Assembly (NCBI RefSeq): GCF_000828675.1
Contig: NZ_AP014510.1
Coordinates: 434,001-498,000 of the forward strand
Source: Thermotoga profunda AZM34c06
GTDB taxonomy: Bacteria; Thermotogota; Thermotogae; Thermotogales; DSM-5069
DNA: 64,000 bases
Direction of reading: 5' to 3'
The notes below the pieces were generated by a model. That model was not told where the DNA came from, searched no databases, and was given only the letters and a program-made list of their open reading frames with translations. How positions within the stretch are numbered: position 1 is the first letter of the stretch; every line of letters starts with the position of its first letter. Shown piece after piece: positions 2,247 through 63,873 of the stretch. A program made the translations under genes and the position numbers.

Positions 2247-3428
2247 GTGAAAAAGGTTCGCGTTGGAATGGTTGGAGTTGGTTTTATCGCAAAGATTCAC
2301 ATGGCTGCCTTTAGAGAGAATTACCCTCATGTCGAGGTTGTTGGTGTCTGTGCATCGAGAAGAGAAAATGCAGAAAGATTTGCTGCTGAATATGGAGTGC
2401 CATTGGTATTTGATAATTTTGAACAGCTATGCAAAAGTGATCAAGTAGATGTTGTTGATATATGTACTCCCACAAATTTGCACGAAGTAGTGATTTTTTG
2501 TGCGTGTGAGAACAGGAAACATGTCATATGTGAGAAGCCTTTGCTTGGTTATTATGGAGAGGATCGTCCTGAGTTGGAGAGGGTGGGGGTTGAGGTACCA
2601 AAGACAGAGATGTATCAAAAGGTCCTCAACAAGATAACTGCACTCGAGAAAAAAATAAGAGATTCAGGTATCAAGTTCATGTATGCAGAAAACTGGGTGT
2701 ATGCACCTGCGATCGAGAAGATGAAGAAAATGATCAAAGTTTCAAATGGAGTTGTTTTTGAATTGAGGGCCGAGTGTAGTCACTCTGGTTCACAGGCATC
2801 CTATTCAAGGAGATGGAGAACATCGGGTGGGGGGAGTTTGATGAGGCTCGGTTCTCATCCGATAGGTGCTGCGATACATATGAAGCACTTTGAAGGACTT
2901 ACGCGATATGGAAAACCATTAAAACCTGTTGCAGTGACAGCCCAGATAGCGTCTTTGACGAAAATGGAAGTTTTGAAAGATCGCCCCTGTTTTGTAGCAA
3001 CGGGTTGGGAAGATGTTGAGGATTGGTCTGTGGCGATCATTGATTTTGAAGATGGTTCTAAGGCAACGGTTTTTTCAACAGATCTGAGTCTTGGTGGCGT
3101 GAAGAATAAAATGGAAATTTACATGTCAAACGGTGTGGTTGTTGCCAATATGACTCCAAATGATTCAATGATTGCCTTTGCACCTGTTGACGGTACTTGG
3201 AGAGATGAGTACATTTGTGAAAAACTTGAGACCAAAGCAGGTTACAGTTTTCCATCGGCAGATGAATTTTGGACAAGGGGTTATCCACAAGAAATGAAAG
3301 ATTTTGCACTGGCTTTACTTGAAGATAGAGATCCTGTATCTGATTTTGATCTTGCCAAACAAACTGTTCAGGTGATCTATGCCGCTTATGTTTCTGCCGA
3401 GCTACAAAAGAAGGTGGAAATCGATTAA
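2247..3428 (+). CDS. Gfo/Idh/MocA-family NAD(P)-dependent oxidoreductase
   Basis: 393 residues. The N-terminal Rossmann fold starts with VGMVGVGFIAKIHMAAF (GxGxxA-type nucleotide loop), followed by ICTPTNLH and the family EKP motif in HVICEKPLLG. The C-terminal alpha/beta substrate domain contains RRWRTSGGGSLMRLGSHPIG, the region that carries the catalytic His in many members. There is a somewhat long insert just after the EKP motif. Members oxidise or reduce sugars, inositols and sugar acids. The gene sits between the M24-like gene and the binding-protein gene, so it probably acts on the substrate of this transporter. AGGAGG at 2235-2240 precedes the start. Substrate not deducible. Confidence 0.88.
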   Translation: MKKVRVGMVGVGFIAKIHMAAFRENYPHVEVVGVCASRRENAERFAAEYGVPLVFDNFEQLCKSDQVDVVDICTPTNLHEVVIFCACENRKHVICEKPLLGYYGEDRPELERVGVEVPKTEMYQKVLNKITALEKKIRDSGIKFMYAENWVYAPAIEKMKKMIKVSNGVVFELRAECSHSGSQASYSRRWRTSGGGSLMRLGSHPIGAAIHMKHFEGLTRYGKPLKPVAVTAQIASLTKMEVLKDRPCFVATGWEDVEDWSVAIIDFEDGSKATVFSTDLSLGGVKNKMEIYMSNGVVVANMTPNDSMIAFAPVDGTWRDEYICEKLETKAGYSFPSADEFWTRGYPQEMKDFALALLEDRDPVSDFDLAKQTVQVIYAAYVSAELQKKVEID

Positions 3429-3485
3429 CCCTCAAACCGTGTGGGGTGTATCTTGGGGGAATTTTTTGGGTAGGAGGGATTGAAG

Positions 3486-4448
3486 ATGAAAAGATCTATC
3501 TTTGTCTTGGTGCTACTTTTATCGGTAGTGGCTTTCAGTGCACAGATCACTCTCAAGGCTTCCACACCATTTCAAAAAGGTCATGTTTTAGCTGATGCCA
3601 TGGAATTGTTCAAAAACAAAATCGAGGTTCAGAGCAATGGTCGAATCAGTGTTGAATTAATTATCGGTCAAGCCTCAGAAGAAGATGTGAATAACCAGTG
3701 TGCTCAGGGTATTGTTGATTTACAATTTACCGGTGGACGACCTGTCGAGGTATTCGCACCACAGTATTTCTTTGTCAATGCACCATTTATCATCAAAGAC
3801 TACGAGCACTTCTTGAGAGTATGGAATGGACCTTTGGGCGAAAAAGCAAAAGCACAAGTAGCAGAAAAAGGCAATATGATCTGTCTTGGAACTGTTTATC
3901 GTGGTTACAGGCAATTCACTTCGAACAAACCCATCTACAGCCTCCAAGATTTGAAGGATATTAAGCTCAGACTACCTGTTGTACCAACCTGGGTGAAAAT
4001 ATGGGAAGCAATCGGAGCAAAGCCCGTGACTGTGCCTTTGACAGAACTCTATCAAGCACTCAAAGAGGGCAGGGCAGAAGCATCTGAAGGAGATCTGACT
4101 CAGATCTCATCTTTTAAGCTGTATGAAGTACAGTCGTATCTCACTTTGACAAACCATTTGTGCGGTGTTGGCTGGGTTACTATGAACAAGACAACCTATG
4201 AAAAGTTATCTAAAGAAGATCAGCAACTTGTTAAAACGATAATGGATGAGGTTTGTGCATGGGCTACACAAAAGATAAGAGATAATGAAAGTAACATCAT
4301 AGCTGAACTTGAGAAAAATGGCATGAAAGTAATCACGCTTGATTCTTCGACGCTTCAACAGATTAGAGAAATGGCAAAGCCAGCTATTGAAGAACTGTTC
4401 AAGACCACATGGCCTGTCACAACTTGGACTGAAGTTCTTGCACAATGA
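3486..4448 (+). CDS. dctP: DctP-family (TRAP-type) substrate-binding protein
   Basis: 320 residues. The start is taken as ATG 3486, eight bases after AGGAGG at 3472-3477; the TTG at 3480 is too close to it. A signal peptide (MKRSIFVLVLLLSVVAFS) has no lipobox Cys. Family marks include KLRLP near residue 164, whose Arg usually clamps the substrate carboxylate, and the following KPVTVPLTELYQALKEG. DctP proteins normally feed DctQM permeases; here the only permease in the operon is TctA-type. The gene closes the operon before a strong terminator at 4451. Predicted ligand: an organic or sugar acid. Confidence 0.88.
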   Translation: MKRSIFVLVLLLSVVAFSAQITLKASTPFQKGHVLADAMELFKNKIEVQSNGRISVELIIGQASEEDVNNQCAQGIVDLQFTGGRPVEVFAPQYFFVNAPFIIKDYEHFLRVWNGPLGEKAKAQVAEKGNMICLGTVYRGYRQFTSNKPIYSLQDLKDIKLRLPVVPTWVKIWEAIGAKPVTVPLTELYQALKEGRAEASEGDLTQISSFKLYEVQSYLTLTNHLCGVGWVTMNKTTYEKLSKEDQQLVKTIMDEVCAWATQKIRDNESNIIAELEKNGMKVITLDSSTLQQIREMAKPAIEELFKTTWPVTTWTEVLAQ

Positions 4449-4450
4449 AA

Positions 4451-4476
4451 AAGGCTGCCGAAAGGCAGCCTTTTTT
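4451..4476 (+). terminator. Intrinsic terminator after the DctP gene
   Basis: A 9-bp stem AAGGCTGCC / GGCAGCCTT with a GAAA tetraloop, followed by a T-rich run, starts two bases after the stop. It ends the tctA-to-dctP transcript. Confidence 0.93.
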
Positions 4477-4505
4477 GTGTTATGATCTTAAATAGGTGAA
4501 CAGGG

Positions 4506-52955: not shown

Positions 52956-52980
52956 AGGGCGATCAAAAGATCGCCCTTTG
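52956..52980 (+). terminator. Intrinsic terminator after the GntR gene
   Basis: 8-bp stem AGGGCGAT / ATCGCCCT with a six-base loop, then TTTGTTTAT. The 145 bases between the gntR stop and the stem hold no gene I can recognise; they include a pyrimidine run CCCCCCACCCTCC near 52906-52919. Confidence 0.82.
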
Positions 52981-53049: not shown

Positions 53050-53895
53050 TCAAACAATTTGGTCAAAGTTGACGATCTGTAGGATATCACCTTTTAGAAT
53101 CATCGCATAGATGCCGTTTTTTGTTAATAAATTCACTGTACTTTCATTTAAGCTCATACCAGCATATATAAAAACAAGCTCGTATTCTTTCAACATAGGT
53201 ATGAAATCTTTCAAGATCTTTGTCTTTTCAATGAATTGTTCGACATATTTTATCCTATCTGGTGAACTCTTTATCTCTGTAACGAAAGCTCGCTTTTTCT
53301 CGTTGCATAGCACAAGTAGGTCTATTTCTAACTCTCTTTCGCCAGTACGCGTGTAATACCTTTGAGTCACCGTGTCAGGATCACAATCAAAGTATTTCTT
53401 GATTGCCTGAGGCATCGAAGGTGCAAAGATATCTTCTACCAGTGTCCCCATCTTGTTTGCCAAATTACCCCATTGGCGTCTCATTTCTTCTATATTTTGA
53501 TCAACTTTTTTCTTGTATTCTTCAAGGTTCAGATCTCTCTTTTTATTCAATTCAGCCATTTCGTTTTTAAAGGCAAGCATTTCTTTTTTGAATTCTTCCA
53601 TACTCTGCTCTCTTTTTCTGGTTAGTTCTGCCATTTCTTTCTTAAACTCTTCCATGCTTTGATCTCTCTTTTTATTCAATTCAGCCATTTCGTTTTTGAA
53701 GGCAAGCATTTCTTTTTTGAGTTGTTCAATACCTTCTTCTCTCTTTCGGTTTGCTTCACGAACTTCGTTTTGAAAGACCATGAATTGTTCTGTCAGATTC
53801 TGAATCTGCATCTCAGTTTTTCTCTGTGCATAAACCAATTCCATTATTGCTTGTTCTAATTTATCGACTTTGTGAACAATTTCAGAGCGAGCCAC
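53050..53895 (-). CDS. Coiled-coil protein with PD-(D/E)XK nuclease-fold domain (copy 1)
   Basis: 281 residues from GTG 53895 (eight bases after GGGAGG; TTG 53901 is too close). Residues 8-140 are one long coiled coil built of near-identical units of 25, 18 and 25 residues (KREEGIEQLKKEMLAF type); the 18-residue unit lacks exactly one heptad. A linker QWGNLANKMGTLVEDIFAPS leads to a C-terminal domain with Asp192 in ELEIDLLVL and Glu207-x-Lys209 in VTEIKSS, the core of a PD-(D/E)XK fold. It belongs to a DUF3782-like group. Function unknown. Paralogue at 63103. Confidence 0.7.
   Translation of the reverse strand: MARSEIVHKVDKLEQAIMELVYAQRKTEMQIQNLTEQFMVFQNEVREANRKREEGIEQLKKEMLAFKNEMAELNKKRDQSMEEFKKEMAELTRKREQSMEEFKKEMLAFKNEMAELNKKRDLNLEEYKKKVDQNIEEMRRQWGNLANKMGTLVEDIFAPSMPQAIKKYFDCDPDTVTQRYYTRTGERELEIDLLVLCNEKKRAFVTEIKSSPDRIKYVEQFIEKTKILKDFIPMLKEYELVFIYAGMSLNESTVNLLTKNGIYAMILKGDILQIVNFDQIV
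53531..53733 (-). repeat. In-frame repeats encoding the coiled coil of copy 1
   Basis: A block beginning GATCTCTCTTTTTATTCAAT occurs at 53532 and again at 53661, 129 bases (43 codons) apart, nearly identical over about 70 bases. A shorter related block lies between. This makes the coiled coil prone to in-frame slippage or recombination. Confidence 0.85.
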
Positions 53896-53964
53896 GTACA
53901 AGCCTCCCTTTAGAATTATACAACAATTGATATCGTTTTATTTTATAGGATGGAGAGATCAAAA

Positions 53965-53994
53965 TTGTTCAACAAAAACTAAGGAGTGTATAAT
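53965..53994 (+). promoter_or_regulatory. Promoter of the radical SAM gene
   Basis: TTGTTC (53965-53970) and TATAAT (53989-53994) separated by 18 bases, about 40 bases ahead of the start codon. Confidence 0.6.
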
Positions 53995-54037
53995 TGATGA
54001 TGAAAATATTTGTAAATATTAGGAAGTGGTGAAAGAA

Positions 54038-63102: not shown

Positions 63103-63873
63103 ATGGAGGTTCAGGAACGTGTGGATAAACTCGAAGAAGCAATGATGCGTTTGGTTTATATTCAGCAAAAAACAGAGATAGAAATTCAAAATTTGAAGAC
63201 CGAAATGAAGATATTCAAAGACGAGATCAGAAATGACACAAAGATGCTCAAAGATGAGATGAAGGTATTCAAGGATGAGATGAAAATGTTCAAAGATGAG
63301 ATGCTCGATTTCAAAAATGATGTGAAAGCGTTTAAAGATGAGATGCTCGAGTTCAAAAACGAGATGAAAGCGTTTAAAGATGAAATGGTTGAATTCAAAG
63401 AATGGAGCAAGAGGAATATAGAGAATATGAACAAACAATGGGGGGCATTGGCAAACAAAATGGGCACACTTGTTGAGGACATCTTTGCTCCATCTATAGA
63501 GATAGCCTTGAAAAATTATTTCGATGTTTTACCAGAGATAATCGATGTGAGAAAGTACATCAGACGTGGTGGTGAATCTTTAGAGATAGATATCCTTGCG
63601 TTAAATGAATCTGAAAAGAAGGCATTTGTAGTTGAGGTAAAGGCAAATCCAGATAAGGTGGAGTACATAGAAGATTTTGTGAAAAAACTCGAAAGACTCA
63701 GGGAGTTCTTACCAACGTTGAAAGAATACAGACTTTATCCAATCTATGCAGCACTGGACATGAAAGCAAAGACGGTGGAAGTTTTGACATCTAAGGGTAT
63801 CTATGCCATGATAGTAAAAGGCGATATCTTGAAGATTGTCAATTTCGAAAAGTTGAGTGAAAAAAATATCTAA
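63103..63873 (+). CDS. Coiled-coil protein with PD-(D/E)XK nuclease-fold domain (copy 2)
   Basis: 256 residues from ATG 63103, after GAGGTGGT. Same layout as copy 1 at 53.0 kb: an N-terminal DKLEEAMMRLVYIQQKTE, a coiled coil of heptads of KDEMKxF type to about residue 100, the linker QWGALANKMGTLVEDIFAPS, Asp163 in LEIDILAL and Glu178-x-Lys180 in VVEVKAN, and the ending GIYAMIVKGDILKIVNFEKL. It may be cotranscribed behind tupC, but a 77-base gap leaves room for its own promoter. Function unknown. Confidence 0.7.
   Translation: MEVQERVDKLEEAMMRLVYIQQKTEIEIQNLKTEMKIFKDEIRNDTKMLKDEMKVFKDEMKMFKDEMLDFKNDVKAFKDEMLEFKNEMKAFKDEMVEFKEWSKRNIENMNKQWGALANKMGTLVEDIFAPSIEIALKNYFDVLPEIIDVRKYIRRGGESLEIDILALNESEKKAFVVEVKANPDKVEYIEDFVKKLERLREFLPTLKEYRLYPIYAALDMKAKTVEVLTSKGIYAMIVKGDILKIVNFEKLSEKNI
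63298..63381 (+). repeat. 42-base tandem repeat in the coiled coil of copy 2
   Basis: Two adjacent 42-base units (63298-63339, 63340-63381) encode MLDFKNDVKAFKDE and MLEFKNEMKAFKDE, two heptads each. Shorter 21-base KDEMKxF units flank them. Confidence 0.85.

Follow-up and report, generated by a model that had tools for sequence, protein, structure and literature searches.

A solitary coiled-coil PD-(D/E)XK protein of Thermotoga profunda with a mixed heptad/hendecad rod of variable length

What does a nuclease-like domain do at the end of a long, repeat-built rod, and does the length of that rod measure anything? The question is raised by a gene of Thermotoga profunda AZM34c06 (GCF_000828675.1), found in the stretch of DNA analyzed here (NZ_AP014510.1, positions 434,001-498,000; 64,000 nt, "the window"). 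An earlier note on this DNA had described a coiled-coil PD-(D/E)XK protein whose rod changes by whole heptads, and had suggested a measuring or assembly device, possibly in defense. We consider it fairly likely that the gene encodes a solitary, sporadically occurring nuclease-like protein, in which PD-(D/E)XK domains are carried on an oligomerizing stalk or spacer of mixed heptads and hendecads, and that the stalk changes length through its repeats while keeping its register.

Anatomy of the gene and its rod

The gene and its rod were divided into the following features (window coordinates).
53050-53895, minus strand: whole coiled-coil and PD-(D/E)XK gene, 281 aa, GTG start at 53895 (open reading frame list and ortholog start)
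53773-53895, minus strand: conserved N-terminal coiled-coil anchor (VDKLEQAIMELVYAQRKTEMQIQNL...), perfect heptads (homolog comparison and core parse)
53677-53751, minus strand: rod unit U1, NRKREEGIEQLKKEMLAFKNEMAEL, 25 residues, two heptads and one hendecad
53623-53676, minus strand: rod unit U2, NKKRDQSMEEFKKEMAEL, 18 residues, one heptad and one hendecad
53548-53622, minus strand: rod unit U3, TRKREQSMEEFKKEMLAFKNEMAEL, 25 residues
53494-53547, minus strand: degenerate fourth rod unit, running into the nuclease domain
53506-53763, minus strand: 129-base direct repeat, copies 53506-53634 and 53635-53763
52956-52977, plus strand: hairpin resembling an intrinsic terminator, between the GntR gene and the rod gene (hairpin scan)

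The GTG start is preceded by AGGGAGG, and the ortholog in the sister species has an ATG at the equivalent residue. An in-frame TTG at 53901 is a possible alternative, without a counterpart in the ortholog. Residues are numbered from the GTG, a start for which the positions given earlier for Asp192, Glu207 and Lys209 are correct. A scan for sigma-70 promoters gave no signal above background for the gene. In the divergent promoter region (53914-53995), TGTATAATT and its reverse complement lie 64 bases apart; they are possibly the -10 elements of the rod gene and of the radical-SAM gene.

Translation bore out the rod anatomy reported before: three exact units (25, 18 and 25 residues) precede the degenerate fourth copy, and U2 is a 25-residue unit lacking exactly seven residues (LAFKNEM), which are present in the units on both sides. 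Unit lengths of 25 and 18 are not divisible by seven, and each unit contains one hendecad (18 = 7 + 11; 25 = 7 + 7 + 11). A register is thus indeed kept, as had been claimed, but it is that of the hydrophobic core and not the heptad register.

The core was parsed by dynamic programming, with core residues 3 or 4 apart and both ends pinned. For the window rod, this gave a core without gaps between the VDKLE anchor at the N-terminal end and the WGNLAN junction; hydrophobic residues occupy 85% of its positions, and there are five stutters. The core score was 48.8, compared with at most 34.6 in 2000 shuffles, which supports a coiled coil. The rods of all 12 homologs could be parsed as well (71-93% hydrophobic core positions, 1-7 stutters). 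Because the ends are pinned, the number of stutters is dictated by length modulo 7, and the independent evidence lies in the hydrophobic quality alone. When deletions were scanned along the rod in silico, register-keeping lengths (4, 7, 11, 18, 25) stood out only modestly from register-breaking ones (2, 5, 6, 9, 13). The full-length AlphaFold monomer was a single long helix, with confidence dropping to about 43-49 around residues 101-120 and a low-confidence break around residues 112-121, as can be expected of a coiled coil modeled without its partner chains.

At the DNA level, the 129-base spacing of the repeats was confirmed. They had been called nearly identical; identity was 56/57 in the best stretch but 79% across all 129 bases, so that the description fits about 57-75 bases and not the full repeat. 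After codon shuffling of the rod (n = 1000), the best stretch never exceeded 40/57, in support of the earlier view of the repeats as a substrate for recombination. Between U1 and U3, one of the 57 bases differs according to the codon table. Read off the same table, roughly 7-9 of 57 differ between the window genome and the sister species, and about 8 between the ortholog's own two copies. Although the numbers are small, they suggest a recent homogenization or duplication of U1/U3 in the T. profunda lineage.

A second subclade (L014 and relatives) has another rod sequence. Its EW-K-NI motifs are spaced by 18 and 25 residues, and the copies of a 129-base repeat agree at 126/129 positions. A relative with this layout lies at 768-1808 of locus L046 (genome G098); its rod is unrelated in sequence to that of the window gene, is built of 18- and 25-residue units and has a 129-base repeat with 126/129 identity. 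The equal 18/25 layout in two different rod sequences either arose twice or is a spacing that persisted as the sequence changed. Near-identical 129-base repeats and an 18+25 layout in two unrelated rods could also be read as built-in recombination sites in rods that are selected to vary, an idea to which we give very little credence. If true, the stalk would step by ~2.7 nm per 18-residue unit, retuning the spacing or reach of the nuclease domains.

Rod length among relatives

Rod length was compared with three other genomes of the genus (G001, G002 and G003) and with 103 genomes of the phylum. An ortholog was present in one of the three (G002), so the gene occurs in two of four species of the genus. 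One scan of genome contigs found a single ortholog (L005), its protein identical to that in G002, and no other. Across the phylum, relatives were found in 9/103 genomes.

The units of the ortholog run 25/18/25/18. Its rod is longer than the window rod by one 18-residue unit, which sits immediately before the degenerate fourth unit; this difference was seen in a single close ortholog. Measured between two conserved anchor residues, a Glu and a Trp, the rods of the 12 homologs span 49-185 residues. Rods with a single stutter have spans of 49, 70, 77, 91 and 91, every one a multiple of seven, and rods with two to seven stutters have spans of 92, 95, 102, 110, 128, 146 and 185. Since the rods of the homologs are unbroken cores of heptads and hendecads, the length steps are 7 and 11.

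The earlier claim of change by whole heptads therefore holds in part. It fits the 25- and 18-residue units within the rod and the five single-stutter spans, and orthologs do differ in rod length as the note had anticipated; it does not fit the spans of the window gene and its ortholog or the 18-residue difference between these two, and the steps are 7, 11 and their sum 18 rather than heptads alone. A heptad-only length quantum was rejected by a circular test on the spans, which did not cluster at period 7 (R 0.26). They clustered at 3.6 residues per turn (R 0.76), with a nominal p of 0.001, uncorrected for about 11 periods tried and obtained on related sequences.

As a molecular ruler, the rod would fix the distance between nuclease domains, or between a nuclease and a partner, and a change in length would retune specificity. 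A long, apparently rigid, repeat-built rod with recombinogenic repeats that could alter its length is what such a ruler might look like. Its length, however, is not conserved between sister species (+18 residues) and covers 49-185 residues between the anchors family-wide, and no conserved partner gene was found near the relatives. A loose spacer is hence more likely than a precise ruler, and the measuring device of the earlier note is disfavored; we give it a very low probability. The rod would rather serve as an oligomerizing stalk or spacer. Its steps of 7, 11 or 18 residues may be gained or lost by slippage or unequal recombination among the short tandem repeats, and selection would tolerate them because the hydrophobic core stays in register.

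The PD-(D/E)XK domain and its known relatives

The C-terminal domain and its motif residues lie at the following positions.
53053-53472, minus strand: C-terminal PD-(D/E)XK domain (structure model and Foldseek)
53320-53322, minus strand: Asp192, metal-binding Asp of the E-I-D motif, invariant (homolog alignment)
53275-53277, minus strand: Glu207, ExK motif, invariant (homolog alignment)
53269-53271, minus strand: Lys209, ExK motif, kept in 11/12 homologs, Arg in the twelfth (homolog alignment)

The AlphaFold model of the last 143 residues (pLDDT 91, pTM 0.86) has the topology H-EEE-H-E-H-E. A search of the PDB by sequence gave no significant match. With Foldseek, the best PDB match of the domain was NucS (2vld, 4.9e-5), followed by R2 endonuclease, EndoMS, Can2, XisH and Card1; restriction enzymes were also found. 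On the basis of this model, the Foldseek matches and the conserved motif residues, the domain can confidently be assigned to the PD-(D/E)XK fold, as the earlier note had predicted. The D...(D/E)xK catalytic residues that define the superfamily are conserved.

A catalytically dead DNA-binding or structural coiled-coil protein would be compatible with the Arg that replaces the motif Lys in one relative. All 12 homologs share E190, D192 and E207, as well as E154/D155 in the first helix, and the conservation of the motif extends across two deep subclades, which makes a dead protein improbable. The domains may instead bind and cut nucleic acid with a divalent metal through D192, E207 and K209, plus E154/D155.

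Proteins with this architecture have been described before. The DUF3782 (PF12644) proteins are stalk proteins with a C-terminal PD-(D/E)XK domain, and the stalk of their bacterial members lacks beta-layer nonads (Hartmann et al. 2016, PMC4786415). Like them, the window protein combines an N-terminal coiled-coil stalk with an endonuclease domain. It scores 14.4 bits, below the gathering cut-off of 24.4 bits, whereas a close homolog (L022) exceeds it with 25.7 bits. DUF1626, now PDDEXK_10 (PF07788, COG5493), also joins a coiled coil to a PD-(D/E)XK domain (Knizewski et al. 2007, PMC1913061). At E 0.01, PF07788 matched none of the 12 C-terminal domains, and a protein of the same phylum that carries both DUF3782 and PF07788 (L049) belongs to a lineage separate from the window family. 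In the literature searched, we found no biochemistry for the coiled-coil PD-(D/E)XK group of 2007 and 2016.

The best Pfam match of the catalytic domain was DUF234 (PF03008), below threshold (5/12 members, best E 6.7e-4). DUF234 is usually preceded by an ATPase domain, which the window protein lacks. RmuC (PF02646) is likewise a coiled-coil protein and has a PD-(D/E)XK domain in common with the window protein, an analogy of function only: the window protein has no Pfam match to it, and the bona fide RmuC of the same genome is encoded elsewhere (G000:C1:848505). When the whole protein was compared with Pfam, NCBIfam, PADLOC and PHROGs, nearly all matches, including those to SMC and phage tape-measure proteins, were chance coiled-coil matches and were discarded. 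We class the window protein as a divergent relative of the DUF3782-stalk nucleases, with an architecture that is already known; proteins of this kind occur in heat-loving microbes and have been little studied.

Genomic setting and proposed role

The rod gene is solitary. Its neighbors in the window have metabolic or housekeeping functions; they encode a GntR regulator, a DUF1292 protein, a radical-SAM/B12 protein and tyrosyl-tRNA synthetase. The ortholog is syntenic, lying between the radical-SAM gene and the GntR gene in both species. Elsewhere, the relatives are mostly flanked by metabolic genes, and no conserved or recurring partner gene was seen in their neighborhoods. One short-rod relative (L044, genome G101) is directly adjoined by an AAA-ATPase_like/PDDEXK_9 protein of another PD-(D/E)XK family (2937-4481).

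An anti-phage protein, in which the rod would sense or oligomerize and the PD-(D/E)XK domain would be the effector, would be in line with the patchy occurrence of the gene (two of four genus species, 9/103 phylum genomes) and with the CRISPR ancillary nucleases Can2 and Card1 among the Foldseek neighbors. The likeness to the latter is, however, that of a widespread fold (~9-20% identity). No PADLOC match covered the effector domain; the matches fell on coiled-coil segments except for a weak one to typeIV_DinG (E 0.04), which ran from the rod into the domain. The PHROGs matches were to coiled-coil segments only. With the gene alone among housekeeping genes and no recurrent partner, the defense or assembly role suggested earlier is not supported, and we consider a defense effector unlikely.

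A second coiled-coil PD-(D/E)XK gene lies 9 kb from the rod gene.
63104-63873, plus strand: paralog, 51% identical

The rod of the paralog consists of heptads (FKDEMK...) and one extra hendecad. The gene lies downstream of an apparent tungstate/molybdate-type ABC transporter gene set. An origin by recent local duplication was rejected, as the tree places the paralog with proteins of other families (support 86/91).

Sporadic occurrence, and one genome with two distant copies that are not sisters in the tree, could point to a mobile or selfish nuclease, encoded by a stand-alone gene that spreads by horizontal transfer. The rod gene is also missing from the counterpart region in G003, where the GntR-TyrS interval lacks the radical-SAM gene too, and it is absent from G001. 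Against this, searches of viral contigs, phages and plasmids yielded no relative, no hallmark gene of a mobile element was recognized beside the rod gene, synteny is kept with the one ortholog, and gene loss fits the pattern equally well. A mobile nuclease therefore has a low probability. In G001, a protein with an RRXRR domain (PF14239), IscB-like by sequence, adjoins the radical-SAM gene (L031, 2434-3285).

The protein is thus probably a homo-oligomeric stalk that presents nuclease domains: the mixed heptad/hendecad coiled coil would homo-oligomerize and carry at least two PD-(D/E)XK domains at its C terminus. By analogy with other coiled-coil PD-(D/E)XK proteins, its cellular role is most likely in DNA maintenance or processing.

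These results give no indication of a novel type of system. They add a well-modeled branch with a complete predicted active site to the coiled-coil PD-(D/E)XK proteins reported in 2007 and 2016. Register-preserving stalk steps were found in two different rod sequences, and the family offers a clean natural series in which to follow how coiled coils evolve, with the stalks of one nuclease family stepping by 7, 11 and 18 residues while the core register is kept.
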